The position numbers were made by a program, and so were the translations under genes. Of a stretch of DNA of 64,000 bases, positions 1,791-51,731 are shown in pieces. The DNA comes from Marinobacter psychrophilus (GTDB lineage Bacteria; Pseudomonadota; Gammaproteobacteria; Pseudomonadales; Oleiphilaceae): NCBI RefSeq assembly GCF_001043175.1, contig NZ_CP011494.1, positions 992,001 through 1,056,000 on the forward strand, written 5' to 3'. Below the pieces are notes generated by a model. The model saw only the letters and a program-made list of their open reading frames with translations, did not search any database and was not told the DNA's origin. Positions within the stretch are counted from its first letter, which is position 1, and every line of letters starts with the position of its first letter.

Positions 1791-2724
1791 TTTTGCTGAC
1801 AACCTGGGCACCTTTGATCCAGTCACTTTACGCTGTGACGAATTGCTACGCGCAGCTGCGAGCCGTATCGGCAGTGATTCGCCCCAGCTAGACGCCGAGC
1901 TGTTACTGGCCCAGGTAACCGGATGGTCCCGAACCCGCTTCCGTGCTTTCCCCGAACAACACGTCAGTCTTGTGCAGGCGGCTGCTTTTGAGCAGCTTGT
2001 AGCCAAGCGCGCAGCGGGTGAACCCGTTGCTTACGTGCTGGGGCAGCAAGAGTTTTGGTCACTGCCGTTGCAGGTGAACGCTGCCACGTTGATTCCACGG
2101 CCCGATACCGAATGTGTGGTCGAGCAGGCGCTGACCCTGAATCTGCCAGCCCAGGCACGGGTTTTGGATTTGGGTACAGGTACCGGCGCCATTGCCTTGG
2201 CGCTGGCCTGCGAGCGGCCTGATTGGGACATAACCGCCAGTGACTTTGTAGATGCCGCCGTCGCCTTGGCGCAGAGCAACTCAGCGGCGCTGAATCTGCC
2301 AATTCAGGTGGTGAAAAGCCACTGGTTCGACCAGCTTGCGGCTGTCTGTTTTGATCAACGTTCTAACCGACGTGGCGATCAGCGTCGTGATTTACAGCGT
2401 GATTTAAGTGGTGATCAGGGCTTTGATTTGATCGTGTCTAACCCGCCTTATATTGCGAAAACTGATCATCATCTGATTGAAGGTGACGTTCGTTTCGAAC
2501 CGGCCTCTGCGCTGGTGTCGGGTGCCGATGGCCTGGATGATATCCGCCATATTGTGGCCGCTGCGCCACGTTGGCTGAACGCTGGCGGATGGTTGCTGTT
2601 AGAACACGGTTATGATCAGGCGCAGGCTGTGCGGGAGTTGCTAGACCAACAGGGCTTTGATCAGGTACATAGCCGAAAGGACTACGGCCGTAATGACCGA
2701 GTGACTCTTGGCCAAGTCAGGTAG
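1780..2724 (+). CDS. prmC: Release factor glutamine methyltransferase
   Basis: PrmC (HemK) uses S-adenosylmethionine to N5-methylate the GGQ glutamine of RF1 and RF2. The 314-residue product has the SAM-binding motif [12 protein letters not shown] at 129-140 and the catalytic NPPY at 221-224. It is longer than the roughly 277-residue E. coli enzyme, partly because of an Arg/Asp-rich insertion at about 190-213 just before NPPY, encoded by imperfectly repeated DNA. It starts inside the end of prfA (11-base overlap). Its TAG stop shares its last G with the first base of a palindromic repeat at 2724. Confidence 0.96.
2351..2418 (+). repeat. Imperfect internal repeat inside prmC
   Basis: Short units such as GATCAGCGTCGTGATTTA and CAGCGTGATTTAAGTGGTG repeat imperfectly here and encode an Asp/Arg-rich stretch ([20 protein letters not shown]) just before the catalytic NPPY motif. 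The unit length varies, so this looks like an old local duplication. I infer it is a loop insertion that does not disturb the fold. Confidence 0.5.
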
Positions 2725-2748
2725 GGGACGGATTTCAAATCCGTCCCC
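2724..2748. repeat. Dispersed palindrome copy 1
   Basis: A perfect inverted repeat: 12-base arm GGGGACGGATTT, central C, then the reverse complement. The first G is the last base of the prmC TAG stop codon. It is the GC variant of the family (GACGGATTT rather than GACAGATTT). Confidence 0.9.
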
Positions 2749-2772
2749 GCTTTCCGTGTCCGTTTTCTCCCA

Positions 2773-2807
2773 AGACCGGGGACAGACTTCAAATCTGTCC
2801 CCGGTCT
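2773..2807. repeat. Dispersed palindrome copy 2 (extended arms)
   Basis: The same core with arms extended to 17 bases by AGACC/GGTCT, one mismatched pair and a central C at 2790. It is 24 bases after copy 1, in the prmC-moeB spacer. Confidence 0.9.
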
Positions 2808-2826
2808 GCCTGGACATCCCACCCAT

Positions 2827-2851
2827 GAGGACAGATTTCAAATCTGCCCTC
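2827..2851. repeat. Dispersed palindrome copy 3
   Basis: Arms of 12 bases around a central C at 2839, one mismatch, outer bases GAGG/CCTC instead of GGGG/CCCC. It ends about 20 bases before the moeB start, so it would form a hairpin in the moeB leader. Confidence 0.85.
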
Positions 2852-2872
2852 GATCTGTCAACGGAGCCCTAC

Positions 2873-3622
2873 ATGCTAAGTGACGACGAGCTGTTACGTT
2901 ACAGTCGCCAGATTCTAATGCCGAACTTTGACATTGCCGGCCAGCAGGCGCTGAAATCCGCGCGCGTCTTAATAGTTGGCTCCGGCGGCCTTGGCTGCCC
3001 CGTGGCGCTTTACCTTGGCGCGGCCGGGGTGGGTCACCTGACGCTGGTAGACGACGATCATATCGAAGTGGCCAATTTGCAGCGCCAAATTGCTTTTGAA
3101 ACCGTCCAGCTCGGGGAATCCAAAGCCGAGCGCCTGGCCGATCGCATTCACGGTATAAACCCATTGATAACGGTAGACGTGATTCGCCAGCGGCTGGAGG
3201 GCGAAGATTTTGACGCCCCTGTGAAACAAGCAAGCCTTGTGTTGGATTGCTGTGACAACTTCAATACCCGCTTTGCCCTGAACCGAGCGTGCGTGAAAGC
3301 CGGCGTACCGCTGGTGTCTGGTGCGGCCATTCGTGGCGAAGGTCAGATCAGCGTGTACGACAGCCGTCAGCCACAGTCCCCTTGTTACCATTGCCTGTAT
3401 CCTGAACAAGGTAATGAGGACCTGACCTGCTCCGAAGCCGGTGTAATAGCCCCACTGGTTGGCATGATCGGCGCTGCGCAGGCGATGGAAGCAATAAAAG
3501 TCATCAGCGGTGTGGGTAAAACTCTGGTAGGCCGCCTGTTGATCGTTGACGCCTGGAGCATGGAATGGCGCGAAATGAAGCTGGCCAAAGATCCGGCTTG
3601 CCCGGTGTGCAATAACAATTAG
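2873..3622 (+). CDS. moeB: Molybdopterin-synthase adenylyltransferase (ThiF/MoeB family)
   Basis: MoeB adenylates the C-terminal glycine of MoaD before sulfur transfer in molybdopterin synthesis; ThiF does the same for ThiS in thiamine synthesis. The 249-residue product has the nucleotide-binding glycine-rich motif (IVGSGGLGCPVALYLGAAGVG), the DxDxIExxNLQRQ-type segment, and paired zinc CxxC motifs (CYHC and CPVC near the C-terminus). I chose ATG 2873 (MLSDDELLRYSRQ), where homology begins; an upstream in-frame ATG at 2708 would translate the three palindromic repeats. MoeB and ThiF are hard to separate by sequence alone. Position after prmC is common in Pseudomonas-like genomes. The TAG stop overlaps another palindrome by one base. 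Confidence 0.9.
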   Translation: MLSDDELLRYSRQILMPNFDIAGQQALKSARVLIVGSGGLGCPVALYLGAAGVGHLTLVDDDHIEVANLQRQIAFETVQLGESKAERLADRIHGINPLITVDVIRQRLEGEDFDAPVKQASLVLDCCDNFNTRFALNRACVKAGVPLVSGAAIRGEGQISVYDSRQPQSPCYHCLYPEQGNEDLTCSEAGVIAPLVGMIGAAQAMEAIKVISGVGKTLVGRLLIVDAWSMEWREMKLAKDPACPVCNNN

Positions 3623-3646
3623 GGGACAGACTTCAAGTCTGTCCCC
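3622..3646. repeat. Dispersed palindrome copy 4
   Basis: Perfect palindrome: 12-base arm GGGGACAGACTT, central C, reverse complement. Its first G is the last base of the moeB TAG stop. It lies between convergent moeB and phrB. Confidence 0.9.
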
Positions 3647-3663
3647 GGTTCTGCAGTCTACTG

Positions 3664-3692
3664 CCGGGGACGGATTTCAAATCCGTCCCCGG
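3664..3692. repeat. Dispersed palindrome copy 5
   Basis: Perfect palindrome with 14-base arms (CCGGGGACGGATTT, central C, reverse complement), 17 bases after copy 4. It ends 14 bases before the phrB stop. Neither copy 4 nor 5 is followed by a T-run, so a terminator role is not supported by sequence. Confidence 0.9.
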
Positions 3693-3706
3693 CTGCTCCC
3701 GGTCAT

Positions 3707-5173
3707 TCAGTCCCTCAGCGCCTGAAACCGCGCAATCGCCTCTTTCCGGCTTTCTTTCAAATCCACAATGGGCCTGGGGTAGCCCCCGGGAATCACCCCG
3801 CCTTTACCAGGGTTGTGAATCCGCTTGCTGTCCAGTTTCGCCAATTCTGGCACCCAGTGGCGGATAAATTCGCCGTCTGTGTCAAAGCGTTCGCCCTGGG
3901 TCATCGGGTTGAATACCCGGAAGTAGGGCGACGCATCGGTGCCGGTAGACGCGCTCCACTGCCAGCCGCCGTTGTTCGAAGCCAGGTAACCATCCGCCAG
4001 CTTTGACATGAAATAAGCCTCGCCCCGGCGCCAGTCAATAAACAAATTTTTGGTCAAAAACATCGCTGCCACCATCCGTAGCCGGTTGTGCATCCAGCCG
4101 GTGGCATTGAGCTGACGCATGGCGGCGTCTACCATCGGGATGCCTGTTCTACCATTTTTCCAGGCTTCAAAATGCTCGTCGGCGGTGTTCCAGTGCAAGG
4201 CCTCGGTTTCGGGCTTGAACGCCCGGTGCATGCTTACCCGCGGGTAGTGGTAAAGAATGTGTATGTAAAAGTCGCGCCAGGCCAGCTCGGTCACCCAGGT
4301 AAAAAAACCTTCCTCGTTGTTGTTGGCTTTGCCAAAAGAGCTGCCCATAGACTCCTTTAGTTGCCACGCTGCCTGCACACACTGGCGGCCAGAAAGCGCG
4401 CCGATAGCCAGGTAAGGCGACAACTTGCTGGTGCCCTCAATCGCGGGAAAGTCGCGATCTTGTTTGTAATCACCCGCTCGCTCTTGCAAAAAGTTCTGTA
4501 GAGCAGCGTGGCCAGCGTTCTCCCCTGTGGTCACTAACGCCGGTGGTGCCTCGCCAAAAAGCATATCCACTTCTTTTTTCAGGATCACGCTGTTGCTGTT
4601 TTTAACGTCGGCGCCGGCCAACGCTTCGCCCACTTTTTTTGGCACGGCAAACAGCGTGGGTTGCTGTTCTTCCTGCCAGCTGCGCCAGCGCCGGGAAAAT
4701 GGCGTGAACACCGAATAAGGCTGGCTTTGCTGGGTCAGTACTTCGCCTACCGGCACCGCGGCCTGGTCACGGTACTTGCTGACCTTAACGCCAAGCGTGT
4801 CGAACCGCGGCTTCAGGGCTTTGTCGCGGCGTCGTTCGCTTACACCGTATTCTTCGTTGAAGTGAACCTGGCTAATCTTGTGCTCGCGGCAAAATGCTTC
4901 CAGCGTACCCAGTGACTGCTCAAAGTCTGCGGCGCGCAAAAAACTCAGGGCAATGCCCAGTTTTGCCAGTTCCTGTGCCAGCGCATCGGCGTGGTCTAGC
5001 ATCAGGTGCACCTTGGCCGCCGACCAGTCGTGGCTGAGCCACTGCTCCGTAGTGACAATAAAGCAGGCTTTAACCGGCTCGTCAGATGATTGCACAGCGC
5101 TCTGGCAGGCGGCAGCCAGGGCCGGATTGTCGGCGGCTCTGAGGTCGTTACGGAACCAGACCAGCTGAGTCAT
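3707..5173 (-). CDS. phrB: Deoxyribodipyrimidine photo-lyase
   Basis: This cytoplasmic flavoenzyme splits UV-induced cyclobutane pyrimidine dimers using blue light, with FADH- and an antenna chromophore. The 488-residue product has the N-terminal antenna-binding domain (MTQLVWFRNDLRAADNPAL) and the FAD-binding C-terminal domain, with conserved segments around WRDFYIHILYHYPR, GWMHNRLRMV and NGGWQWSASTGTDASPYFR. Length is typical of class I CPD photolyases. It is convergent with moeB. The start codon is preceded by AGGAGACACC on the coding strand. No partner gene is adjacent. Confidence 0.96.
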   Translation of the reverse strand: MTQLVWFRNDLRAADNPALAAACQSAVQSSDEPVKACFIVTTEQWLSHDWSAAKVHLMLDHADALAQELAKLGIALSFLRAADFEQSLGTLEAFCREHKISQVHFNEEYGVSERRRDKALKPRFDTLGVKVSKYRDQAAVPVGEVLTQQSQPYSVFTPFSRRWRSWQEEQQPTLFAVPKKVGEALAGADVKNSNSVILKKEVDMLFGEAPPALVTTGENAGHAALQNFLQERAGDYKQDRDFPAIEGTSKLSPYLAIGALSGRQCVQAAWQLKESMGSSFGKANNNEEGFFTWVTELAWRDFYIHILYHYPRVSMHRAFKPETEALHWNTADEHFEAWKNGRTGIPMVDAAMRQLNATGWMHNRLRMVAAMFLTKNLFIDWRRGEAYFMSKLADGYLASNNGGWQWSASTGTDASPYFRVFNPMTQGERFDTDGEFIRHWVPELAKLDSKRIHNPGKGGVIPGGYPRPIVDLKESRKEAIARFQALRD

Positions 5174-5339
5174 GGTGTCTCCTGAGTGTTGGCTAAAAGG
5201 GTTGTTCAGAGCTAGCCGTACGGGTAATTACACTGCGCGTAGCGACTAAAACAACGGGTTTATCTATTCGCTGCTATTGTGGTATTGGATTATAGTGAGC
5301 GCAACATGGCGGCTCAAAAAACAGGAAGATAACCGGCGT

Positions 5340-6206
5340 ATGAAACAGCCCGCAGAGTGCTCTCTAAAGCATTCTCCACAGCATTCTGCAGCCGCTGATC
5401 AACGCTGGAAATCCAGCAGCGATGACGGCCTGTGGGCCAGCCCGTACACCCTGAAATCCGGTGAAACCCAGCACCACAGCTTGGGCCACTCGCAAATCTG
5501 GGTGACGTTGCTGGACATGGAATGGCAAATTCGTTCCCAGCAGGAAGAACAGCAGCAGGTGCCTAAAGACTGGAAACTGGTGACCGGCCACTCACTGCCA
5601 TCGTCAGACATTCCAGTGCAGCGGTTCATCCGTAACGGCGATGCCGAAATGGTGACCTATGTTCCTGCCATGGCGGACCGCCCAACGGTTATTAGGCCTT
5701 ACCAGCCGCTCACCATAGCGGCCGAAGGGCAGTGCATTATCTATGTCGGCACAGCCCTTTGGATGAACGTGTGCATCGGCCCCAAACAGCTGTTGGTGGC
5801 AAGCATACCGCTGTCGGAACCGTCGTTGACTTGGGTCGGTAGCAACACCATGGAAGGCGAACTGTGTTATTCCGCCCAAAGCTACGCCCGCCTGGCGTTA
5901 GAGGCGGTGCCCAAGCGCCCCTGGCGCGCTGTTACCCCGGTTAACATCCACAACCGGCGGCCGCAGCCTTTGTTAGTAGAGCGCTTCAATCTGCCTACCC
6001 AGCTGTTATCGATTCACCGCAATCACCTTGGCCAGCTGTGGACGCCGGGGGTGAATGTGGAAGTAGACACCGATGTGAACGCCGCCAGCATGCGGGTAGA
6101 CCCGTCGCCTCCGCCGGCTGCCGGCCCCTGCGAGCCCCTGGGCCCGGCCCGGGAGCAAGTCAGCCGCGGGCGCTTTGTGCGCACCCTGGACCGGATATTC
6201 GGTTGA
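5340..6206 (+). CDS. Conserved hypothetical protein, first gene of the mscS/rimK cluster
   Basis: I do not recognise this 288-residue protein with certainty. The start ATG 5340 (MKQPAECSLKHS) follows AGGAAGATAACC; an upstream in-frame start at 5277 has no better support. There is no signal peptide or clear membrane segment. The middle is beta-rich with segments such as PTVIRPYQPLTIAAEGQCI and LLVASIPLSEPSLTWVGS, and the C-terminus is Pro-rich (RVDPSPPPAAGPCEP). It is 119 bases upstream of mscS on the same strand. I recall DUF432-type proteins beside such clusters, but I cannot confirm that family here. Its role is probably tied to the channel or RimK genes that follow; that is inference. Confidence 0.6.
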   Translation: MKQPAECSLKHSPQHSAAADQRWKSSSDDGLWASPYTLKSGETQHHSLGHSQIWVTLLDMEWQIRSQQEEQQQVPKDWKLVTGHSLPSSDIPVQRFIRNGDAEMVTYVPAMADRPTVIRPYQPLTIAAEGQCIIYVGTALWMNVCIGPKQLLVASIPLSEPSLTWVGSNTMEGELCYSAQSYARLALEAVPKRPWRAVTPVNIHNRRPQPLLVERFNLPTQLLSIHRNHLGQLWTPGVNVEVDTDVNAASMRVDPSPPPAAGPCEPLGPAREQVSRGRFVRTLDRIFG

Positions 6207-6325
6207 CCTTTTATTTAGCTGATTTTCCATTTGATTGAACTTGGGTTTGCGTGGTCCTCTATCCGACTGATCTTCTGTTCGGGTGGCTTTTTATTTGATG
6301 GGTACAAGCCGGGAGTAAACGTACT

Positions 6326-7213
6326 GTGTTGGATCAACTAAAACACATGGCTGCCAGCGTCGTTGATGGCATTGCCTGGGGCCAATGGTTCAGTTCGCTG
6401 TTCCTGTTTGGCTTAGGCCTGTTATTGGCTACGTTTGCAGCCCGCAGTGTCAGCCGATTTATGGCCAAACGTGCTTCGCGCCATCACACGGTAATGCTAA
6501 AGCGCTTGGTGTTTTATGTCATTGTCGTGATTTTTGCGGTGGCCGCCCTGCGTGAAGCGGGGTTTTCGCTGGATGTGGTGCTGGGCGCAGCCGGTATTTT
6601 AACCGTAGCCATCGGTTTTGCCTCGCAAACATCGGCTTCCAACATGATCAGCGGATTGTTTTTGCTGGTGGAAAAACCGTTTGAAATTGGCGACGTAATC
6701 GAAGCCGACGCCACCATTGGCGAGGTGGTCAGTATTGACATGCTGAGTGTAAAACTGCGCACGCCAGACAACCTTTATGTTCGCATTCCCAATGAAACTC
6801 TGATCAAAACCAAGGTGGTTAATCGTTTCCGCTTTCCCATTCGCCGGCTCGACCTGACGGTTGGCATTGCTTACGCTGAAGACGTAGAACGGGTAGAAAA
6901 ACTGCTCTTGGCACTGGCAGAAAAGCACCCAACCTGCCTGAAAGAGCCGAACCCATTCGTGTTGGTGACCGGGTTTGGTCAGTCGTCGGTAGACGTGCAG
7001 TTTTCATTCTGGGTACCCAGGGAAAAACTGGAGGCCAGTCGCAGCAGTATGATGATTGCAGTTAAAAAAATGCTCGACCGGGAAAAAGTTGAAATTCCCT
7101 TTCCCCACACCAGCATATACGCAGGTAGCCATTCAGAACCTTTCCGTGTGCAGCTGATGGCACCGCAAAATTTGCCAGACAAGGAACAGCCAGATGTCCA
7201 AAAAGACAGCTGA
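6326..7213 (+). CDS. Small-conductance mechanosensitive channel, MscS family
   Basis: MscS channels open under membrane tension and release solutes on hypo-osmotic shock; they form inner-membrane heptamers. The 295-residue product has N-terminal hydrophobic helices at about 18-42 and 58-76, the Gly/Ala-rich pore helix (LGAAGILTVAIGFASQTSASNMISG), the beta domain (EIGDVIEADATIGEVVSIDMLSVKLRT) and an alpha/beta C-terminal domain. Length is near the 286 of E. coli MscS. The start is GTG 6326, preceded by GGGAG at 6311-6315. The end overlaps the next gene by 20 bases, which suggests translational coupling with rimB. Confidence 0.93.
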   Translation: MLDQLKHMAASVVDGIAWGQWFSSLFLFGLGLLLATFAARSVSRFMAKRASRHHTVMLKRLVFYVIVVIFAVAALREAGFSLDVVLGAAGILTVAIGFASQTSASNMISGLFLLVEKPFEIGDVIEADATIGEVVSIDMLSVKLRTPDNLYVRIPNETLIKTKVVNRFRFPIRRLDLTVGIAYAEDVERVEKLLLALAEKHPTCLKEPNPFVLVTGFGQSSVDVQFSFWVPREKLEASRSSMMIAVKKMLDREKVEIPFPHTSIYAGSHSEPFRVQLMAPQNLPDKEQPDVQKDS

Positions 7214-7718
7214 CGGCTTAACGCCCGTCAACGGTTCCACAATCGCTGGGGGCTCTACAACTGCTGACGATTTTTCAAAAGTGCGCCTGGGTTGGCGCGA
7301 ATGGGTGGCTCTGCCCGAGTTGGGCATTGGCCTGATTAAAGCCAAGGTGGACACCGGTGCGCGTACATCGTGCCTGCACACCTTTCGCACCGAGCCCTAC
7401 ACTGAAAATGGCGAGCGCCGGGTAAAGTTTTGGGTGCACCCGACACAGAATGACCTGCAAGAGGTGATTGAGTGCGACGCGCGGGTGCTGGATGAACGCA
7501 ACGTGTCCGACTCCGGCGGCCACAAAGAATTACGGCTGGTGGTTGAAACCAACTTAGTGGTGGGCGACCAAAGCTGGCCCATAGAAATGACACTGACCAA
7601 CCGGGACTCCATGCGTTTTCGCATGTTGATTGGCCGTACCGCTATGGCGGGCTGGGCCACCGTTTTCCCGGAAGCATCTTATTTGGCCGGGCAACCGGTA
7701 TTGAGGAACGAATCATGA
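7194..7718 (+). CDS. rimB: RimB-like 'ATP-dependent zinc protease' family protein (retropepsin-like)
   Basis: The 174-residue product belongs to the family annotated as ATP-dependent zinc protease and found beside rimK; the fold is retropepsin-like. The diagnostic motif [13 protein letters not shown] is at residues 51-63, with D53 in the DTG/DTGA position of aspartic proteases. The second conserved segment ([15 protein letters not shown], here [16 protein letters not shown]) and LIGRTAM near the C-terminus also fit. The first 30 residues are Ser/Thr-rich and probably disordered. It starts within mscS and its last four bases overlap rimK (ATGA). The family name reflects early annotation; neither ATP nor zinc dependence can be seen from sequence. 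Confidence 0.87.
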
Positions 7719-8620
7719 AAATTGCCGTGCTATCCCGTAACCGAAAATTGTATTCCACCCGCCGGCTGGTGGAGGAAGGAGTCAACCGCGGCCACGAGGT
7801 GCGTGTCATTGACTGCCTACACTGTTCCATGAACATTACCTCGGCAAATCCTGCGATTCATTATCACCAGCAAGTGCTGGAAGATTTTGACGTGGTTATT
7901 CCGCGTATCGGTGCGTCAGTCACCTTCTACGGCACAGCGGTATTGCGTCAGTTTGAAATGATGGGCACGTTTCCAGTCAACGAATCGGTCGCCATTACCC
8001 GCTCCCGCGACAAACTGCGCTCGCTGCAGTTGTTAGCCCGCAAAGGCGTTGGCATGCCCGTAACCGGTTTTGCCAACAAGCCCGATAGCGTTCCTGATCT
8101 GCTAAAAATGGTGGGTGGCGCCCCGGTGGTTATCAAATTGCTGCAAGGTACCCAAGGCATTGGCGTGGTGCTGGCGGAAACACGCACCGCTGCGGAAAGC
8201 GTTATTGAAGCGTTTATGGGTTTAAAAGCCGACATACTGGTGCAGGAATTTATCAAGGAAGCCGGCGGCGCCGACATTCGCTGTTTTGTCATAGGCGACA
8301 AAGTCATCGCCGCCATGAAACGCCAGGGTGCTGACGGTGAATTCCGTTCTAATTTACACCGCGGCGGCACTGCCTCGTTGATTCGCATTACGCCGGACGA
8401 GCGCCGCACCGCGATTACCGCGGCCAAGGCCATGGGCCTGAACGTGGCGGGTGTAGACCTGCTGCGCTCGTCCCGTGGGCCGTTGGTGATGGAAGTAAAC
8501 TCCTCGCCAGGGCTTGAGGGCATTGAAAATGCTACAGGTAAAAACGTCGCCGGTTTGATCATGAGCTGGATTGAAAAAAATCAGGCCCCCAGTCGCACAA
8601 AAACCCGGGGCAGAGGATAA
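7715..8620 (+). CDS. rimK: RimK-type alpha-L-glutamate ligase
   Basis: RimK is an ATP-grasp ligase that adds glutamate residues to the C-terminus of ribosomal protein S6 and can make poly-alpha-glutamate. The 301-residue product matches the E. coli length (300). Visible are the N-terminal domain start [18 protein letters not shown], the ATP-grasp substrate loop ([19 protein letters not shown]), a Gly-rich nucleotide loop ([12 protein letters not shown]) and metal-ligand segment [14 protein letters not shown]. The start overlaps rimB by four bases and the next gene begins 3 bases after the stop, so these genes form a tight unit. Presence of rimB-rimK fits the S6-modification system described in Pseudomonas. 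Confidence 0.93.
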
Positions 8621-8623
8621 CCG

Positions 8624-9691: not shown

Positions 9692-9806
9692 TGCCCTCCA
9701 TTGCGGGTAGGTTGACTATGGTCGGATTAAGCAAGCCCGTGCCCACGAAGTGGGGATGAAAGTAAAAATCATACTTTTGACTGATAAGAACTAGAGAGAG
9801 CGTTGG

Positions 9807-9812
9807 TATAAT
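9807..9812 (+). promoter_or_regulatory. Candidate -10 box upstream of the DUF1302 gene
   Basis: A perfect TATAAT hexamer 57 bases before the start codon, in the 178-base spacer after the rimK cluster. The hexamer 17 bases upstream is poor, and the TTGACT at 9777 is 24 bases away, too far for a normal spacer. A regulator may therefore be needed. Confidence 0.4.
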
Positions 9813-9869
9813 CTGACAGTGAAAGTTCTATAACAGCAAGAACACAATAATAAAGGGAGTAGTCTTCCA

Positions 9870-11699: not shown

Positions 11700-11732
11700 T
11701 CCGTCTCTTATTCGTTTAGCGAGGTATTATTT

Positions 11733-27461: not shown

Positions 27462-27490
27462 GCTTTGATACTCTATATTTCAAAAATAAA

Positions 27491-27515
27491 AAAGGAGGGG
27501 ACAGTCCCCTCCTTT
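27491..27515 (-). terminator. Terminator after pilA
   Basis: A 10-bp perfect stem (AAAGGAGGGG and complement), 5-base loop, followed on the minus strand by a T-rich run. It separates pilA from pglL, so pglL depends on readthrough or on its own promoter. Confidence 0.88.
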
Positions 27516-27535
27516 AAAATCTTAATATTCCAATG

Positions 27536-38749: not shown

Positions 38750-38766
38750 TCAATTCCTCAAATTCC

Positions 38767-40713: not shown

Positions 40714-40861
40714 TGAATAAGTAAGCACAGTTAATTTTCGGACTGAGGCTTCACAGCTGGTCCTACCAGTTATTCACCGTTGATTCTTGACACCCATGTT
40801 GCTGACGCCTTAACTCAGATTTCGGAGATTGGTTAAAAACCACACAGCGGAAGCACTTACA

Positions 40862-42121: not shown

Positions 42122-42156
42122 CAGCGGCCGGTTAAGTTAGCCCGGTTCGTATCGAT

Positions 42157-42180
42157 GCCAGGGGCGGTAATGCCCCTGGC
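42157..42180 (+). terminator. Hairpin between the dehydrogenase and cytochrome c genes
   Basis: A 9-bp perfect stem (GCCAGGGGC and complement) with a 6-base loop and no T-run. It could stabilise the upstream mRNA or weakly terminate rather than stop transcription fully. Confidence 0.55.
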
Positions 42181-42202
42181 CCATTCCCAGGACTGATACC
42201 TT

Positions 42203-42538: not shown

Positions 42539-42594
42539 AGCGCTGCAACGGGGCTGTGATATTCAAAGCTCGGTCAGACAAACATTATTCATTT

Positions 42595-42610
42595 TCATGG
42601 ACAGGCACAA
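42595..42610 (+). repeat. TGGACAGGCACA motif copy next to a palindrome
   Basis: TCATGGACAGGCACAA, the same 16 bases as at 28308; it ends 11 bases before palindrome copy 6. Confidence 0.7.
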
Positions 42611-42621
42611 TCAATTCAACC

Positions 42622-42652
42622 AGGGACAGATTTGAATTTCAAATCTGTCCCT
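42622..42652. repeat. Dispersed palindrome copy 6 (15-base arms)
   Basis: Perfect 15-base arms (AGGGACAGATTTGAA and complement) around a single T. It contains the TGA stop codon of the minus-strand gene at 42639-43691. Confidence 0.9.
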
Positions 42653-43691: not shown

Positions 43692-43732
43692 GGTGTTGGC
43701 GGCCTTATTGATGCGATTGAAAAGTGTAAACC

Positions 43733-43757
43733 AGGAACAGATTTCAAATTTGTCCCT
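43733..43757. repeat. Dispersed palindrome copy 7 (degenerate)
   Basis: Arms AGGAACAGATTT and AAATTTGTCCCT around a central C at 43745, with two mismatched pairs. It lies upstream of the hypothetical gene. Confidence 0.8.
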
Positions 43758-43818
43758 TATTTAAACCATGGTAGATCACGTAAAGGCAAGGACCTACTTA
43801 TCGGAAGCTTAAACCGTA

Positions 43819-43842
43819 AAAAGCCAGCAATAGCTGGCTTTT
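43819..43842 (-). terminator. Terminator after carboxynorspermidine dehydrogenase gene
   Basis: A 10-bp stem (AAAAGCCAGC and complement) with a 4-base loop; the coding (minus) strand ends in T5. It closes the two-gene polyamine unit. Confidence 0.82.
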
Positions 43843-43861
43843 GTCTTTTTCAAAAAATAAT

Positions 43862-45103: not shown

Positions 45104-45185
45104 TTCCAGACATAACTCCAATTATAAACCGTGGTTGATTTGCTAAAAGCAAGACGTTGTCAGGTCATGCCGCCTACGGCAAGCC

Positions 45186-46283
45186 TTACGACAATGCCTG
45201 CACAAAATCGTCATAGTCGAATGACTTGACGAGTTCAATACGTCCATCCAGTTGTCTAACCGCAATAGACGGCATCCTTACGCCGTTAAACCAACTTTTT
45301 TTGACCATCGTATAGCCCGCCGCATCCTGAAAAGAGAGGCGGTCACCGATCTGCAAAGGCTTTTCAAACTGAAATTCGCCAAAAATATCACCAGCTAAGC
45401 AAGACGTTCCACAAACCTGGTACGCGTAATTCCCTCGGTTGGGCTTGAGTTTTGCGCTTTCCCGGTAGATCAATAGATCCGGCATATGGGCTTCAATAGA
45501 CGAATCGACAATCGCCAGATTTTTATTGTTGTTGAGCAGATCAAGAACGGTCACTTCCAGGCTGGTAGAATGGGTGATGGCAGCCTCGCCGGGCTCCAGA
45601 TAAACCTGCACTGCATAACACTCAGCAAAGGCCTTCAGTCTTTGGCAGAAGCGCTCCAGAGGGTAGTCTTCTCCGGTAAAGTGAATGCCACCACCCAGAC
45701 TGACCCAGCTGACTTTTTCCAGCAGGTGCCCAAAACGTGTTTCGATTACCTGCAGAAGTTCATCAAAGCGCTCGAAGGAGGCATTTTCACAGTTGTTGTG
45801 AAACATGAAGCCTGAGACCTGATCCAGAACGTCCGCGATTTTTTCCGGGTCGTGCTCACCCAAACGGCTGTGCGGGCGGGCCGGATCGGCAAGGGTGAAA
45901 TTCGAGGAGCTGACACCGGGGTTAACTCTGAGCCCCCGGGTTTGGTGTGCAGATACCTCAGAGAAGCGCTGTAACTGGCTGATGGAGTTAAAGATGATTT
46001 TATCGCTGTGAGCCAGAACTTCTTCAATCTCATCATCCGCGTAGGCGACACTGTAGGCGTGTGTTTCCCCTGAAAATTTCTGCTTACCCAGTTTGACTTC
46101 ATTGAGAGAAGAAGACGTCGTGCCATCCATGTAGGCTTGCATCAAGTCAAAGACACCCCAGGTGGCAAAGCACTTGAGCGCCAGCAAGGATTTGGCACCA
46201 GACTCTTCCCGCACCCTGGCAATGATCTCCAGGTTACGCAGAAGTTTGCTTTTATCGATCAGATAATAGGGCGTTTTGAGCAT
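45186..46283 (-). CDS. nspC: Carboxynorspermidine/carboxyspermidine decarboxylase
   Basis: A 365-residue PLP enzyme of alanine-racemase fold that decarboxylates carboxyspermidine or carboxynorspermidine to the triamine. The PLP lysine lies in SLLALKCFATWGVFDL, with the conserved SSSLNEVKLG after it; the catalytic cysteine region is QVCGTSCLAGDIFGEF. Segments WVSLGGGIHFTGEDYPLE are typical. It is the first gene of the unit (dehydrogenase follows on the minus strand). The gene name follows the Vibrio system; the product could be spermidine or norspermidine. Confidence 0.93.
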   Translation of the reverse strand: MLKTPYYLIDKSKLLRNLEIIARVREESGAKSLLALKCFATWGVFDLMQAYMDGTTSSSLNEVKLGKQKFSGETHAYSVAYADDEIEEVLAHSDKIIFNSISQLQRFSEVSAHQTRGLRVNPGVSSSNFTLADPARPHSRLGEHDPEKIADVLDQVSGFMFHNNCENASFERFDELLQVIETRFGHLLEKVSWVSLGGGIHFTGEDYPLERFCQRLKAFAECYAVQVYLEPGEAAITHSTSLEVTVLDLLNNNKNLAIVDSSIEAHMPDLLIYRESAKLKPNRGNYAYQVCGTSCLAGDIFGEFQFEKPLQIGDRLSFQDAAGYTMVKKSWFNGVRMPSIAVRQLDGRIELVKSFDYDDFVQALS

Positions 46284-46383
46284 TGTCTTTCCTCAAAAAT
46301 ACGCAACTATATACGATAAACACTCTTGGACATTACTTTTGACATCTGTCTCAACCAACACCCTGTATTCAAGGACTTTTATT

Positions 46384-46563
46384 TTGGAAACACTACTGAT
46401 CATACTAGCGGTGCTGTTTGTGGCGCTGATTGTTATTCTGCCGCTGGTTGAGAAATATGCGCCGAAAGGTGAATCTCGTGATTACGGCAACATCACGCGG
46501 TTCATTTTTCCGCTGATGGCCGTGTTGATTTTGGCGCAAATGATTCGGCATTTCTTTTTCTGA
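46384..46563 (+). CDS. Small conserved membrane protein
   Basis: A 59-residue protein from TTG 46384 (METLLIILAVLFVALIVILP) with AAGGA 8 bases upstream; the longer frame from ATG 46276 reads through the divergent nspC promoter. Two hydrophobic helices (2-21 and 40-56) surround a charged centre (EKYAPKGESRDYGNIT). No family known to me. It is alone and divergent from nspC. Confidence 0.6.
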   Translation: METLLIILAVLFVALIVILPLVEKYAPKGESRDYGNITRFIFPLMAVLILAQMIRHFFF

Positions 46564-46684
46564 GCCGGAGGGGGTGGAAGATCATTAGCGTTTTGAATAG
46601 GGATAGGTACTGCGTAGTTTGAAGTAGACATACGCACGGCGTTGTTTCACGGCTAGGGTGCTTGTACGGCAGGATGCGATTGAT

Positions 46685-47698
46685 TTAGCCTTCCATATTC
46701 GCTTTATATTCCCCGGTGCTAGCAGCGCCGTTGAGCCTGGCCCGTTTGAACATGGCGGTCTGGGCAGCGGGTGTGTTGCCCGGTTCTCCGGCCCAAGCTT
46801 TCTGTGCCGGCTCTTGCAGGGCGCGTCCATAAGAAAAGCTCAGGCTCCAGGGTTGCTGGCCAAGGCTGTTCATCGCGTTCAGGTTGATAGTAGCTTCTTC
46901 GGGAGTCTGTCCGCCGGAGAGGAAGTTGATACCCGGAACGGCCGCCGGAACAACTTTGCGTAATACCCGCAAAGTAGCTTCTGCTACTGCTGCCGGAGAT
47001 GCCTTCGCACACGCTTTGCCTGGCGTTACCATGCTGGGCTTTAGAATTATGGTTTCCAGTTGCACGCGGTGGCGGCGCAGGGCGTTGAAAACCTCCGCAA
47101 TCACGGCTTCGTTCACTTCTGCAGACCGTTCAATGGTGTGGTTGCCATCAATCAGAACCTCTGGCTCTACAATGGGCACCATACCTTTGGACTGGCATAG
47201 TGCGGCATACCGGGCCAGCATTTCAGCATTGGCTTCCACCGCCTGGCGTGAGGGCAGTGTGTCGGAGACGTTGTACACCGCCCGCCACTTGGCAAAACGG
47301 GCGCCCTGGTTCTTGTAGATTTCCAGCCGGTCATCCAGGCCGTCGAGGCCGTAGGTTATTTCATCGCCCGGAGCGTTGATCAGGGGCTTTTTCCCCGTAT
47401 CTACCTTGATGCCCGGCACAATTCCTTGGCTTTCCAGCAGCTTGGCGATTGGTACATTATCCAGGCTGTTCTGACTCAGGGTCTCCTCAAAAAGAATCAC
47501 ACCGCTGACAAATTCTCCAAGCCCGGGTGTGGAAAAGATCAGGCTGCGGTACTCCCGGCGTTTATCTTCTGTGGATTCAACACCCACCGCATCGAAGCGT
47601 TTCGCGATAGTCGGGAGGCTTTCGTCTGCAGCAAGAACCCCCTTGCCTGGCTGAACAAGAGCCTGAATCGTCGAAAGTAATTCGGCGTAAATATTCAT
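46685..47698 (-). CDS. Class I fructose-bisphosphate aldolase
   Basis: A 337-residue eukaryote-like class I aldolase, cleaving fructose-1,6-bisphosphate to DHAP and glyceraldehyde-3-phosphate by a Schiff base. The catalytic lysine lies in LETIILKPSMVTPGKAC; other signatures are GKGVLAADESLPTIAKRF, EPEVLIDGNHTIE and NFLSGGQTPEEATINLNAMN. Start ATG 47698 (MNIYAELLSTIQ) fits homology; the open frame goes to 47770. Class I enzymes need no metal. Bacterial class I aldolases are unusual but common in this lineage. Confidence 0.94.
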   Translation of the reverse strand: MNIYAELLSTIQALVQPGKGVLAADESLPTIAKRFDAVGVESTEDKRREYRSLIFSTPGLGEFVSGVILFEETLSQNSLDNVPIAKLLESQGIVPGIKVDTGKKPLINAPGDEITYGLDGLDDRLEIYKNQGARFAKWRAVYNVSDTLPSRQAVEANAEMLARYAALCQSKGMVPIVEPEVLIDGNHTIERSAEVNEAVIAEVFNALRRHRVQLETIILKPSMVTPGKACAKASPAAVAEATLRVLRKVVPAAVPGINFLSGGQTPEEATINLNAMNSLGQQPWSLSFSYGRALQEPAQKAWAGEPGNTPAAQTAMFKRARLNGAASTGEYKANMEG

Positions 47699-47808
47699 GT
47701 CAGCACCTATGCCGTATTGAATGTTGTCATCTTTTTCGGCTCTTTCTGCTCTGCAGTATAGTCTACTCATTAGCCATGGGCGCTGAAGTGCCGTTCACAT
47801 CCAAGGTA

Positions 47809-47833
47809 GGGGACAGATTTCAAATCTGTCCCC
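47809..47833. repeat. Dispersed palindrome copy 8
   Basis: A perfect palindrome, arm GGGGACAGATTT, central C at 47821, preceded by TA as in copies 1, 4 and 9. It is followed by CGG and, 24 bases on, by an inverted TGGACAGGCACA motif. Confidence 0.9.
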
Positions 47834-47856
47834 GGTTCCCAGCATTATGCTCAAGA

Positions 47857-47870
47857 TGTGCCTGTCCATC
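47857..47870 (-). repeat. TGGACAGGCACA motif, inverted, next to palindrome copy 8
   Basis: On the + strand TGTGCCTGTCCATC, the reverse complement of GATGGACAGGCACA. It is followed by ACTCC, as is the related stretch beside copy 9. Confidence 0.7.
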
Positions 47871-47997
47871 ACTCCCTCCCGTATTTACTCCTGCTTTTTC
47901 TTTTGACAGTCTCTGCATTGTCATATCTCCCGCTGACACTGTGTTCCAGACACCATCTTTTTTTTCGATGATTAAGAGCAACAAGGAGAGGCATAAC

Positions 47998-50034
47998 ATG
48001 GCGAAGCACAACGTTGATTCCAAGTATCTGGACCCCGATTATGAGCCGGTTGTAAATCATTCGGGTAACAAAGTATTCGATGATGTGCTTAATGCGCGCG
48101 TGCAGCGCCGTACCTTGATGAAAGGCGGCGTGGGTGCGGCGTTGGCCAGCATCATGGGTTTCGGCCTTGCGGGCTGCGGCAGCGATAGTAGTAGCGTCAT
48201 TGCTAGTGCTAGTGCAGGTTCAGACCCTGATGGCGATAACGTTAGTAAAACGGCCCTTGGCTTTGACGCGGTCGCCGTATCCACCGCCAATAATGTTGTT
48301 GTGCCTGCGGGCTACTCGGCAAAAGCTTTCCTGCCATGGGGAACCCCAATTACCGGGTCTTATCCGGAGTTCAGGGCTGACGCGTCTAACTCTGGCGCCG
48401 AGCAGGAACAGCAAGTGGGCATGCACCACGATGGCATGCACTTTTTCCCGATTGATTTCAAAGCGGGCGGTAACCGCTCTGATGAGGGGCTGCTGGTAAT
48501 GAACCATGAATACATCAACCAGAAAGCCCTGCACCCTGAAGGTCCCACCTATAACCAAAGTGGCATGCGCCCGGCCGATGAAGTGCGTAAGGAAATAGCC
48601 GCGCACGGCGTGTCGGTGGTGCATATAAAGCAAGACAGCGCGGGCACTTGGGACATCGTGTTTGAAAGCCCTTTCAATCGTCGGGTGACGGGCAATACAG
48701 AAATGGATATCCGCGGGCCGGTTCGTGGTTACCAGAAGCTGTCAACCCGCTTCAGTCCGAATGGCACCCAGACACGGGGCACGCTGAACAACTGCTCGAT
48801 GGGCCCTACGCCCTGGGGAACCTACCTTGCGGCAGAGGAAAACTGGCACGGCTACTTTGCCAACGGCTCGCAAACGCAGCCACGGGAACAGACCCGTCAC
48901 GGTGTTGGTAACGCTACCCGCTACGACTGGGAACAGGCAGACAGTGGCGAGGATCAGTACATTCGGTTCAACATCACCCCCGCGGCCGAAAGCGCTAAAG
49001 ACGACTATCGGAACGAAGCAAACACCTTCGGTTATATGGTCGAAATTGATCCGTTTACGCCGGAAAGCAAACCTCAGAAACGCACAGCTTTGGGTCGATT
49101 CGGGCACGAGGGCGTCATTTTTGCGCCGGTTGAAGAAGGTAAACCCGTTGTCTGTTACTCCGGCGACGACTCCCGCTTTGAGTATATTTACAAGTTTGTT
49201 TCCTCGCGGCCTTATTATGCGGCAACTGCCAGCGGCTATCTGCTGGATGAAGGCACCTTGTATGTCGCACGTTTTAATGAAGATGGCTCGGGCGACTGGC
49301 TCGCGCTGTCGCTTGATAACCTGGATTTTGTGGCCCGCGTGCAGGCTGCACAAGGTTCATCGGTGGGCGCTGTTCTTTTCGAGGGTTTTGAAAACCAGGC
49401 GGATGTTCTTTTGAATACGCGTTTGGCCGCCGATATTGCCGGAGCTACGCCGATGGATCGCCCGGAATGGGGCGCGGTTGACCCGAACACGGGCGAAGTT
49501 TATTTCACCCTGACTAACAACTCACAACGCACGGAAGAACAGGTGAATGCGGCCAACCCCAATGCAGAAAATCGCACGGGCCACATTATTCGCTGGAGCG
49601 AAGCCAATAAAGACTTTGCTGCAGCTGAATTCCAATGGGATATCTTTTTGTTTGCCGGGGAGCAGGGCACAGAGACGATCGTAGATGGAAAAGTTGTTGT
49701 GTCGCTGACGGATGACAATATCTTCAACAGCCCGGACGGCCTGTGGTTCGACTACAATGGCCGCCTCTGGATTCAGACCGATGGCTCTGACGCTGCACCC
49801 TACCAGAACAACATGATGCTAGCGGCCAGCCCCGCAACCCGGGACATCAGGCGCTTTTTTGTGGGACCTCAGGGTTGTGAGGTAACCGGCGTTGTGACCA
49901 CGCCGGACGTTAAATCCATGTTTGTGAACATTCAGCATCCGGCTCGCGATTGGCCCTTTGGCACCGAGGGCGATCATCCGCGGGATGCAACCGTCATCAT
50001 TACCCGCGACGACAACGGCGTGATCGGCGCCTGA
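47998..50034 (+). CDS. PhoX-like (DUF839) alkaline phosphatase family protein, Tat-exported
   Basis: A 678-residue protein from ATG 47998, with AGGAG 11 bases upstream. The N-terminus carries a twin-arginine signal (VQRRTLMKGGVGAALASIMGF) followed by a lipobox-like LAGC at about residues 57-60, so it may be a Tat-exported lipoprotein. The rest is the DUF839/PhoX domain: GNTEMDIRGPVRG-like segment, NCSMGPTPWGTYLAAEENWHGYF, FGHEGVIFAPVEEGKPVVCYSGDDSRFEYIYKFVS and NSPDGLWFDYNGRLWIQTDG. PhoX enzymes are calcium/iron-dependent phosphatases. Its size and Tat export agree. It is flanked by palindrome copies 8 and 9. Confidence 0.9.
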   Translation: MAKHNVDSKYLDPDYEPVVNHSGNKVFDDVLNARVQRRTLMKGGVGAALASIMGFGLAGCGSDSSSVIASASAGSDPDGDNVSKTALGFDAVAVSTANNVVVPAGYSAKAFLPWGTPITGSYPEFRADASNSGAEQEQQVGMHHDGMHFFPIDFKAGGNRSDEGLLVMNHEYINQKALHPEGPTYNQSGMRPADEVRKEIAAHGVSVVHIKQDSAGTWDIVFESPFNRRVTGNTEMDIRGPVRGYQKLSTRFSPNGTQTRGTLNNCSMGPTPWGTYLAAEENWHGYFANGSQTQPREQTRHGVGNATRYDWEQADSGEDQYIRFNITPAAESAKDDYRNEANTFGYMVEIDPFTPESKPQKRTALGRFGHEGVIFAPVEEGKPVVCYSGDDSRFEYIYKFVSSRPYYAATASGYLLDEGTLYVARFNEDGSGDWLALSLDNLDFVARVQAAQGSSVGAVLFEGFENQADVLLNTRLAADIAGATPMDRPEWGAVDPNTGEVYFTLTNNSQRTEEQVNAANPNAENRTGHIIRWSEANKDFAAAEFQWDIFLFAGEQGTETIVDGKVVVSLTDDNIFNSPDGLWFDYNGRLWIQTDGSDAAPYQNNMMLAASPATRDIRRFFVGPQGCEVTGVVTTPDVKSMFVNIQHPARDWPFGTEGDHPRDATVIITRDDNGVIGA

Positions 50035-50080
50035 GCGCGCGGCCCGACATGGAGAAGCATAAGACAGCGTAAACAAGATA

Positions 50081-50105
50081 GGCGACAGATTTCAAATCTG
50101 TCGCC
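50081..50105. repeat. Dispersed palindrome copy 9
   Basis: A perfect palindrome, arm GGCGACAGATTT (third base pair changed on both sides, a compensatory change), central C at 50093. It is followed by a degenerate copy of the stretch that follows copy 8. Confidence 0.9.
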
Positions 50106-50121
50106 GGTGTTATGCCCAGAG

Positions 50122-50133
50122 TGTGCTTGCCCT
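50122..50133 (-). repeat. Degenerate TGGACAGGCACA motif next to palindrome copy 9
   Basis: TGTGCTTGCCCT on the + strand, followed by TACTCC; compare TGTGCCTGTCCATCACTCC beside copy 8. The preceding TATGCCCAGAG also matches TATGCTCAAGA, so the two palindromes share about 40 bases of flank. Confidence 0.6.
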
Positions 50134-50283
50134 TACTCCGTTGGTGTTTCATGGCCACCGTTATACGATTATGTAACCTCGCCGTTAGCGCTTTGTTGGT
50201 GTGTTAACTTCCGAGGATGGATTTCGGTCGGATGGACCGGGCGATGGTCCTGAAACGCAATTCCACCTGAAGGAGGCATAGCG

Positions 50284-51663
50284 ATGTCAGATTCAAACCA
50301 GACAATCAATCCGGCAACGGAAGAAGTGATCGAAACCTATTCTTTGATATCCCGGGAAGAAGCAGAAGGCATTGTCGATCAGTGCCACGAGGCTTTTTCG
50401 GGCTGGCGGCAAACACGGTTTTTGGATCGCGCGAATGTGCTGCGAAAAACCGCTGAACTGATTCGCGAGCGCAAGAATGAGTACGCCGCGCTGATGACCC
50501 GTGAAATGGGTAAAACCCTGGCGCAGGGCAAGCAGGAATGCGATTTGTGTGCGGCCATTTGCGAGTACACCGCAGATCAGGGCGCGCAGGTATTGGCTGA
50601 CGAACCCCGCAACATTGACGGTGGCCGCGGCTTGGTGACCTATCAGCCCCAGGGCGTCATTTACGGCATTCAGCCGTGGAATTTCCCGCTGTATCAGGTT
50701 ATCCGTTACAGCGCCGCCAACCTGATGGCTGGTAATACCGTACTGTTGAAGCACGCAGCCAACGTGTGGGGTATGGCCGTTGAGGTTGAGCAGCTGTATC
50801 GCGATGCCGGCTTGCCCCAAAACGCCTTTCGTACGCTGCTGATCAGCCATGACGTTTCAGATGCGGTGATCGAACACAAGCGTGTTCGCGGCGTTACGCT
50901 AACGGGCAGCCCGGGTGCGGGCCGCATTGTTGCCGAAAAAGCGGGCAAAGCATTGAAGAAATCAGTGATGGAGTTGGGCAGTAACGATGCCTATTTGGTG
51001 CTGGCCGACGCCGACATTGAAAAGGCTGTGAAGTTTTCTGTGCAGGGCCGGGTGTACAACGCCGGTCAAACCTGTGTTGCCGCCAAACGTTTTATTATTG
51101 ACGATGCGGTTTACGACCAGTTCCGTGATGCCTACGTTGCCGCGATGAAAAACGTGACATTTGGTGACCCGACTGACCCGCAAACCGATATCGGCCCCAT
51201 GGCCCGAAAGGATCTGCGGGATGGACTGCACGATCAGGTGCGCAAGTCGATTGACGCCGGCGCCACCTGCTTGCTGGGCGGCGAGATTCCAGAGGGTAAG
51301 GGTTGCTATTACCCGCCGACGGTTCTGGAAAATGTCACCCCAGGCCAGCCCGCTTACGACGCCGAGCTGTTCGGCCCCGTGGCCGCGCTGATTCGGGTAA
51401 AAGATAAAGCCGAAGCGATCGCGGTTGCCAATGATTCTGTGTATGGCTTAGGTGGTGGTATTTTTTCTGCAGATGAAGCAGAAGCGATCCGCATTGCCCG
51501 TGACGAACTGGACACCGGTATGGTGAACATTAATGGCTACAACCTGGCGCTGCCAAACATGCCCTTTGGCGGGGTGAAAGAAAGCGGCTATGGCCGTGAG
51601 CATGGTGGTTTTGGCATGCTCGAGTTCGTGAATGTGAAAGGCGTTATGATCAGCGATGGTTGA
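50284..51663 (+). CDS. NAD(P)-dependent aldehyde dehydrogenase (succinate-semialdehyde type)
   Basis: A 459-residue ALDH. The catalytic cysteine lies in NAGQTCVAAKRF, the general-base glutamate in KKSVMELGSNDAYLV, the cofactor glycine motif in TGSPGAGRIVAEKAG and the oxyanion asparagine in GIQPWNFPLYQ. The ELGS rather than ELGG and the C-terminal MPFGGVKESGYGREHGGFGMLEF are typical of succinate-semialdehyde dehydrogenases (GabD/Sad type). AGGAGG precedes the ATG. Monocistronic, followed by palindrome copy 10 which can act as terminator. Confidence 0.93.
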   Translation: MSDSNQTINPATEEVIETYSLISREEAEGIVDQCHEAFSGWRQTRFLDRANVLRKTAELIRERKNEYAALMTREMGKTLAQGKQECDLCAAICEYTADQGAQVLADEPRNIDGGRGLVTYQPQGVIYGIQPWNFPLYQVIRYSAANLMAGNTVLLKHAANVWGMAVEVEQLYRDAGLPQNAFRTLLISHDVSDAVIEHKRVRGVTLTGSPGAGRIVAEKAGKALKKSVMELGSNDAYLVLADADIEKAVKFSVQGRVYNAGQTCVAAKRFIIDDAVYDQFRDAYVAAMKNVTFGDPTDPQTDIGPMARKDLRDGLHDQVRKSIDAGATCLLGGEIPEGKGCYYPPTVLENVTPGQPAYDAELFGPVAALIRVKDKAEAIAVANDSVYGLGGGIFSADEAEAIRIARDELDTGMVNINGYNLALPNMPFGGVKESGYGREHGGFGMLEFVNVKGVMISDG

Positions 51664-51685
51664 TGGAATTGAATCGCTGTGAGCC

Positions 51686-51731
51686 TTAGCAAAAAAAGGG
51701 GGGGTAGATTTTAAATCTGTCCCCCTTTTTT
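51686..51731 (+). terminator. Palindrome copy 10 forming a terminator after the aldehyde dehydrogenase gene
   Basis: A/T-flanked version of the dispersed palindrome: AAAAAAGGGGG, imperfect GGTAGATTT, then TTAAATCTGTCCCCC and TTTTTT. Outer A/T arms add a T-run, so this copy can act as an intrinsic terminator 23 bases after the stop, unlike the other copies. Confidence 0.8.

Follow-up and report, generated by a model that had tools for sequence, protein, structure and literature searches.

The window analysed here, a stretch of 64,000 nucleotides from the genome of Marinobacter psychrophilus (G000; one contig, 3,998,597 bases), carries ten copies of a short palindrome (Table 1). Our data suggest that it is probably a non-autonomous repeat resembling REPINs (hairpin-forming doublets of repetitive extragenic palindromic (REP) sequences), in which two ends (GGGGACAGATTT) of a terminal inverted repeat-associated tyrosine transposase (TIRYT) are fused around one base, and that it was spread by a TIRYT. 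The unit consists of a 12-bp arm GGGGACAGATTT, one centre base, the mirrored arm AAATCTGTCCCC and short outer tails.

The sister species G004, the closest relative sampled, harbours an intact Y1 transposase gene of 219 aa (locus L118, G004 1724825-1725484). Its product carries the motifs NHVH and YVELNP, of the type of TnpAY1 subclass 2.1, and matches PF01797 with 51 bits; with NF047646 it scores 70.7 bits, under the model cut-off of 80. About 95 residues follow the Pfam Y1 match, where a helix-turn-helix-like C-terminal extension would be expected for this subclass, and no second Pfam domain was found in the protein at E 1e-3. The gene lies inside palindrome arrays, with three palindromes at the stop end, the nearest of which contains the stop codon, and five upstream. 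The orthologous place of M. psychrophilus holds a single palindrome without the gene (81 bp vs 1068 bp between anchors).

An inward-facing arm GGGGACAGATTT (at most one mismatch, within 160 bp) is present at 8 of 10 Y1 loci with at least 46% identity vs 1 of 33 below (p 2.7e-6), a cut that was chosen after the flanks had been seen. With up to two mismatches the arm stands on both flanks at 6 of the 10 close loci vs none of the 33 distant ones. These 43 loci are taken from 52, leaving out genes at a contig edge (L181, L204), truncated genes (L207, L210, L186, L189, L199) and repeats of L117 and L016 (L187, L194); counting L181, L204, L207 and L210, the arm (at most one mismatch) is found at 9 of 14 close loci. 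Relatives in other families show GGGGACAGATTTATTT before the gene and AAATAAATCTGTCCCC (at most one mismatch) after it (L180, L182, L206) or variants thereof (L202, L203, L205). The arm GGGGACAG fits the terminal repeat pattern GGGGWSAS, and many more distant Y1 loci end in other sequences, e.g. GGGGACAGACCACG or GGGGTCAGA. The arm is thus specific to the clade, and therefore it is the end sequence of this transposase clade. Y1 homologs as such are common (5148 proteins at E 1e-3; 77 of 293 genomes of the order at 1e-30). A related Y1 lineage (L117, L017, L018) is found among repeats like AAAACCGGGACAGATTTATTTT, which run in the same direction and are not inverted.

The palindrome was searched genome-wide using R1, a covariance profile built from 18 copies. 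This gave 159 matches over both strands of the M. psychrophilus genome, with 150 of 1184 candidates scored, and at least 88 unique copies at about 65 sites. Kept copies have at least 19 of 24 arm letters, as do 88 of the 96 rows with at least 17 of 24; copy numbers are lower bounds. Among the 96 rows an even palindrome appears twice and one match or more is due to chance (703650), and position 1043693 (51697 of the window) was added to the R1 list by hand. An earlier note on the window had proposed this count and had named a genome with only ten copies as one half of the case speaking against a mobile family; with at least 88 copies that half does not arise. The core pattern GRCRGAYTTNAARTCYGYC has 53 sites in M. 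psychrophilus and none in the reversed control, and twenty mononucleotide-shuffled windows gave 4 matches in total at a threshold yielding 9 in the real window. The family is therefore not a product of chance.

The sites comprise 44 single, 19 double and 2 triple ones. Among the 88 copies there are 21 neighbour gaps of 37-57 bp, a short spacing of the REPIN type. The centre base would put 12 of these 21 pairs in parallel and 9 in opposite orientation; as this base apparently flips, it is no safe guide to orientation. The earlier note had placed all palindromes between genes or at gene ends. This holds for most copies, but 10 of 87 lie inside an open reading frame (ORF) of at least 150 aa, vs 82.5% of 10,400 points drawn at random from the same loci. 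Read in frame, the palindrome gives GTDFKSVP or GQISNLS, and such peptides occur in open frames overlapping copies (L118, L263, L264, L272). Palindrome-overlapping frames are a likely source of spurious gene calls. Copies are unevenly spread, about half or more of them within 0.97-1.10 Mb and 2.19-2.72 Mb.

The distribution among relatives was evaluated with R1 at E 1e-4 in 58 genomes (M. psychrophilus, 36 of the same genus, 21 from other families of the order), using stricter filters with 115 candidates scored per genome. Bulk copies are confined to M. psychrophilus and G004, ten genomes have one or two weak matches and 46 have none. Of the other Marinobacter genomes, where the earlier note had advised a search, 1 of 36 thus shares the population. 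The MoeB-like proteins of the two species are 97% identical, that of the next relative 81%. A strict pattern occurs in 9 of 369 genomes of the class, namely at 36 sites in M. psychrophilus and at 1-3 sites each in eight others; in the 293 genomes of the order, a set that includes M. psychrophilus, one has it. Y1 homologs of 48-50% identity are found in three of the eight (G420, G325, G265), of 42% in G369 and of 36% in G144 and G364. The end repeat stands beside the gene in G420 (L180) and G265 (L182) but not in G325 (L181), whose gene is at a contig edge. Moreover, one pattern scan retrieved 13 stretches with exact palindromes on 11 IMG/VR contigs labelled viral (L263-L275). By our own reading the palindromes adjoin apparent phage genes in L263, L264 and L272, and one 54-kb contig labelled viral has at least 12 exact copies.

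A G004 counterpart could be assigned to 44 of the 65 M. psychrophilus loci, and 43 of the counterparts contain palindromes as well. Most paired sites therefore predate the split. One pair of palindromes is specific to G004, lying 76 bp apart at a place with 26 bp of other sequence in M. psychrophilus. The two populations differ in perfection. All 12 arm pairs match in 38 of 88 M. psychrophilus copies and in 128 of 156 copies retrieved from G004; at the 44 shared loci the numbers are 26 of 65 vs 75 of 89 (p 1.7e-8). Among 50 aligned copies M. psychrophilus is worse in 24 and G004 in 4, with 22 ties. The lower perfection in M. psychrophilus fits a loss of the transposase there. Y1 matches number 3 in M. 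psychrophilus and 22 in G004.

The arms change in pairs. Within M. psychrophilus the co-variation at positions 3, 6, 9, 10, 11 and 12 from the centre is reached by 0 or 1 of 2000 shuffles, while at positions 1, 5, 7 and 8 pairing is not above that of re-paired arms. The paired changes described in the earlier note are thereby borne out for the former positions and not for the latter. Subfamilies alone could suffice to generate this co-variation. Between the species, 24 of 600 position pairs in the 50 aligned palindromes changed on both sides, 22 of them in a complementary manner (4.2 expected), and 53 changed on one side only. In flank-matched subsets all 6 both-side changes are complementary vs 1.5 expected (17 copies) and 11 of 12 vs 2.7 (31 copies). 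The clearest case is the window copy at 50081 (Table 1).

A general pairing of flanks beyond the arm was rejected, as positions 13-23 do no better than re-paired flanks; the symmetric part is therefore 12+1+12. A minority of copies extends its symmetry into unique flank, by at least 4 bp in 8 copies vs 1.7 expected (0 of 2000 shuffles), and at 64890, 2225708 and 3203290 one flank mirrors the opposite one where G004 is different. It is solely such copies that point to inverted copying. The centre base differs in 27 of the 50 aligned copies, 11 of these being C to G, as compared with 48 C/G changes among 466 flank differences; the strictest subsets, which are small, give 3 of 5 (17 copies) and 2 of 4 (10 single-copy sites). 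Neither centre flips nor extension into unique flank would be expected from selection on pairing alone. We infer template switching as the cause of the pairing; replacement by other palindrome copies may be an alternative source of the flips and the extended flanks. Apart from that, position 24 from the centre pairs in 39 of 88 copies vs 23 expected (0 of 2000 shuffles), which its neighbours do not. In single copies it is 21 of 48 vs 13 (13 of 1000 shuffles). Position 24 is one of many that were tested.

The family has probably arisen as follows. Two terminal inverted repeats of a Y1/HUH TIRYT with subclass 2.1 motifs would fuse head-to-head, leaving an element without a body. As in the model proposed for REPINs and REP-associated tyrosine transposases (RAYTs), the palindrome would fold in single-stranded form into a hairpin, to be recognised and then copied or moved by the transposase. 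Copies would settle mostly in intergenic regions, singly, as dimers or in arrays 37-57 bp apart. Replicative template switching between the arms would then maintain the near-perfect palindrome, change its arms in pairs and flip its centre, and now and then it would copy flanking DNA into inverted form. On this account the M. psychrophilus population, with no intact gene of the clade found, would be decaying, and in G004, where the gene is intact, most copies would be kept perfect.

Several observations weigh against this account. That the enzyme moves the palindromes is what we infer, and no transposition event was seen. An intact gene of the arm-bearing Y1 clade was not found in M. psychrophilus, which answers the earlier note's call to look for an intact RAYT gene in the negative: the sole intact Y1 frame there (L016, 220 aa) is 35% identical and has another end, GGGGTCWGACCCC, and two truncated pieces at 3123189 and 3124822 (69-73% identity) are fragments of a related lineage. 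A single gene, L118 of G004, was found within full palindrome arrays; the other members of the clade are accompanied by ordinary inverted or direct repeats. The palindrome is present in G141 (one contig) and G243 with no Y1 homolog at E 1e-15, and conversely G687 has a Y1 gene with the end repeat yet no strict palindrome. Likewise no Y1 homolog was detected in the 14 palindrome stretches retrieved from the eight other class genomes, nor at E 1e-4 in the 13 IMG/VR stretches. Some array copies aligned between the two species are possibly not true orthologs. In the one gene tested, unique changes are 1.3 to 2.7 times as numerous in M. psychrophilus as in G004 (28-35 vs 13-22; four usable outgroups, with L139 and L140 excluded as misregistered), and part of the perfection gap is therefore due to branch length. 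Finally, palindromes in one broken G004 gene have replaced target DNA instead of inserting cleanly. Clean insertion is what IS200/IS605 elements show.

This gene belongs to a G004 cluster (L123, 141000-160000) with twenty palindromes in about 14 kb, repeated fragments and broken copies of a gene that we read as UDP-sugar-dehydrogenase-like near an intact one, which looks like a rearrangement hot spot. In the gene copy that could be aligned through, palindromes and their tails replace about 28, 25 and 245 bp and no target duplication is seen. The largest replacement could result from a later deletion between palindromes. No general rule can be drawn from three places in a single gene copy. The cluster has no match at E 1e-20 in M. 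psychrophilus 1284001-1324000, the guessed ortholog region.

Such replacement would also be in line with a spread mainly by slippage, template switching and recombination, with a transposase no longer needed and the Y1 gene of G004 inserted into an array already in place. The differing copy number per site (65 in M. psychrophilus vs 89 in G004 at 44 loci) and the three inverted flanks mentioned above point the same way. However, slippage leaves unexplained why there are about 65 dispersed sites, why the arm equals the end of one transposase clade and why a second palindrome family, described below, tracks the presence of Y1. We regard it as unlikely.

The last of the opposing observations concern hairpins as such and come from the MoeB-like gene of the window. 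M. psychrophilus has three palindromes before and two after this gene, G004 two and two. In 28 re-oriented loci of relatives, drawn from 60 other genomes with a match, the 160 bp before and the 150 bp after the gene contain no palindrome of the family. Another hairpin (arms of at least 10 bp) directly follows the stop codon in 14 of the 28, vs 8 of 280 random pieces taken from these loci. In the genus, the MoeB-like 3' end thus attracts or needs a hairpin, possibly as a terminator. The palindromes at this end may by now fill that part, and selection may act on pairing at places of this kind. The match between arm and transposase end is untouched by this result. Common to most of the 14 hairpins is a conserved core some 65 nt long (CCAAAACACGC...TGGCTCCGC...GGTTTTGG; L138, L142, L144, L145, L149, L150, L152, L153, L155, L157, L159, L160, L163). 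It sits at the apex of long perfect stems with arms of up to 30 bp, different in each species, as if it had entered the tip of resident hairpins. In L137 the gene is followed by a plain 15-bp hairpin.

Could the palindromes instead be immobile transcription terminators, or RNA hairpins of another kind, that selection on pairing maintains? Their mostly intergenic position, a consensus that folds as RNA at -17 to -19 kcal/mol, the paired arm changes and the hairpins of the 14 relatives would agree with this, and the copy at 51697 resembles a bidirectional terminator. Against it, only 15 of 88 copies have TTTT on one or the other strand at a distance of up to 8 nt from the stem, no Rfam family reaches its gathering score within the window, and 35 of the 36 other same-genus genomes have no bulk copies. 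Moreover, up to eight copies share one site, copies lie inside broken genes and the arm sequence is that of a transposase end. For the one place checked, the earlier note's objection that related species might carry ordinary terminators at the same sites is answered in part, as the relatives there lack the palindrome and half of them have a hairpin of another kind. A terminator family has been set aside on these grounds as quite improbable.

A classical REP/REPIN family with a GTAG foot, moved by a group 2 or 3 RAYT, would share the copy number, the dimers at 37-57 bp and the intergenic placement, and at L120 (4385800-4390000) G004 does possess a gene whose motifs, DHLH and YVVANP, are of the classical RAYT kind. 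Of the 88 copies, however, 8 have the foot GT[AG]G and 1 has this tetranucleotide at a control position farther from the centre, the commonest four-base feet being AACC (15 of 176) and GATA (13 of 176). The L120 stretch has no arm within two mismatches, and it is instead the gene with subclass 2.1 motifs that palindromes surround. The foot and the gene context largely refute this alternative, which we likewise set aside as very improbable. Operator sites of a DNA-binding regulator, suggested by the odd-length, symmetric 25-bp form and the mostly intergenic position, were also dismissed and are hardly conceivable: copies stand at 3' ends of genes as well as upstream, in arrays, in broken genes and on contigs labelled viral, and bulk copies are common to one close relative only.

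A second TIRYT clade has a comparable end palindrome. GGGGTCWGACCCC, with a centre of one nucleotide, belongs to the L016-type gene and occurs in 22 of 41 genomes of the genus with up to 61 copies (reversed control 2 matches overall). Many of the matches listed are paired at a distance of about 40 bp and have A and T centres. Ten or more copies occur in 11 of the 24 genomes in which any Y1 was matched vs none of the 17 others (p 0.0009), and five or more in 12 of 24 vs 1 of 17, whereby the Y1 tally spans all Y1 clades and the compared species are related to one another. M. psychrophilus has three copies, all at L016. We tentatively propose, as a possibility still rather doubtful, that Y1 transposases of subclass 2.1 (group 1) repeatedly yield REPIN-like populations of their own by fusion of their ends around a spacer of one base, as in GGGGACAGATTT-N-AAATCTGTCCCC here and GGGGTC-W-GACCCC in other Marinobacter. 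Such elements would insert with loss of target DNA. Template switching or renewal would keep them perfect as long as the transposase persists, and after its loss they would decay.

As regards known systems, the earlier note's comparison with REP/RAYT elements applies in kind, i.e. a mobile REP-like family with a cognate Y1 transposase, but not in family, as the GTAG foot is missing and the motifs are those of a TIRYT of subclass 2.1. REPINs and RAYTs, as far as outlined in PMC8049555, likewise comprise non-autonomous palindromic repeats, short-spaced dimers, few transposase genes per genome and decaying remnants; here, however, there is no GTAG tag, each single unit is symmetric and the transposase motifs are those of another subclass. 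The parts of PMC8266576 available to us state that E. coli REP activity needs GTAG and a bulge and call group 3 REPs perfect palindromes. The contrast with a bulged REP hairpin drawn in the earlier note consequently applies to group 2, whose bulged stem the perfect consensus palindrome lacks, and is no argument against group 3.

TIRYT genes, some with ends fitting GGGGWSAS, and terminal inverted repeat (TIR) families in dimers and groups were described by Di Nocera et al., including a self-complementary family in Stenotrophomonas maltophilia K279a (ORF 1152), according to the sections of PMC3733652 at hand. The present family resembles these TIRtrons in its Y1 gene with GGGGWSAS ends and in repeats dispersed singly, in dimers and in groups, some self-complementary (same sections of PMC3733652). 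It differs in that both arms equal the 12-bp end around a one-base centre, the ORF 1152 repeat being compared by its description, and in that two sister species contrast, with the gene kept in G004 and not found in M. psychrophilus. Quentin et al. 2018 assign most TIRYTs to TnpAY1 subclass 2.1 (RAYT group 1; motifs NHVH and YIELNP), the largest class-2 subclass in their table, and according to the portions of PMC6006769 available to us they found the neighbourhood of its genes to lack REP-like sequences. The transposase described here is of the same kind as judged from its HUH and Y motifs, but its gene lies inside palindrome arrays. Homogenised arms, inverted spacers and newly created hairpins are products of template switching between inverted repeats described in PMC8604942, in the part accessible for yeast coding genes and RNA hairpins, whereas here we deal with a dispersed inverted-repeat family.

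By title and beginning of abstract, none of the papers listed for Marinobacter together with repetitive extragenic palindromic sequences deals with this family, and listed papers matching the exact arm strings are unrelated by title. TIRYTs and TIR families themselves are known; new is the combination of a TIRYT with symmetric palindromes in a dispersed population. It offers a candidate DNA partner for a large class of Y1 transposases for which no REP partner is known and shows a route from the end of a mobile element to a self-standing symmetric hairpin. With an intact gene in one sister species and none found in the other, upkeep and decay of a repeat population become measurable, and selection can be told apart from copying of one arm from the other as ways of keeping a hairpin perfect.

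Within the window all ten reported places hold the described palindrome and all are matched by R1 (best-strand E 4e-17 to 1.5e-9), eight of them by construction, as they are part of the model; the two outside it, 42622 and 51697, reach E 4e-11 and 1.5e-9. Of the palindromes that the earlier note called near-perfect, those at 43733 and 51697 have two mismatched pairs each and two others have one. The note's starts at 2773 and 3664 take in outer bases of the 25-bp cores listed in Table 1. The longer palindrome at 42622 has arms ending in GAA around a central T, and two copies overlap a TAG stop by one base. An extra weak R1 match on both strands (27490-27516, 19.7 bits) is perhaps a decayed copy.

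Table 1. Palindrome copies in the 64-kb window (positions of the window).
Feature	Position	Strand	Remarks
Palindrome copy	2724..2748	.	Begins on the final base of the TAG stop codon of the PrmC-like gene (1780-2724)
Palindrome copy	2778..2802	.	In G004 apparently the right end alone remains
Palindrome copy	2827..2851	.	Upstream of the ThiF/MoeB-like gene (ATG at 2873)
Palindrome copy	3622..3646	.	Begins on the final base of the TAG stop codon of the ThiF/MoeB-like gene
Palindrome copy	3666..3690	.	44 bp from the 3622 copy, dimer
Palindrome copy, 15-bp arms	42622..42652	.	R1 match
Palindrome copy, 2 mismatched pairs	43733..43757	.	Intact in G004
Consensus palindrome copy	47809..47833	.	Between aldolase and PhoX genes
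Palindrome copy, paired change GGCGAC/GTCGCC	50081..50105	.	G004 ortholog GGGGAC/GTCCCC, flanks near-identical
Palindrome copy, 2 mismatched pairs	51700..51724	.	A-run and T-run flanks, after aldehyde dehydrogenase gene

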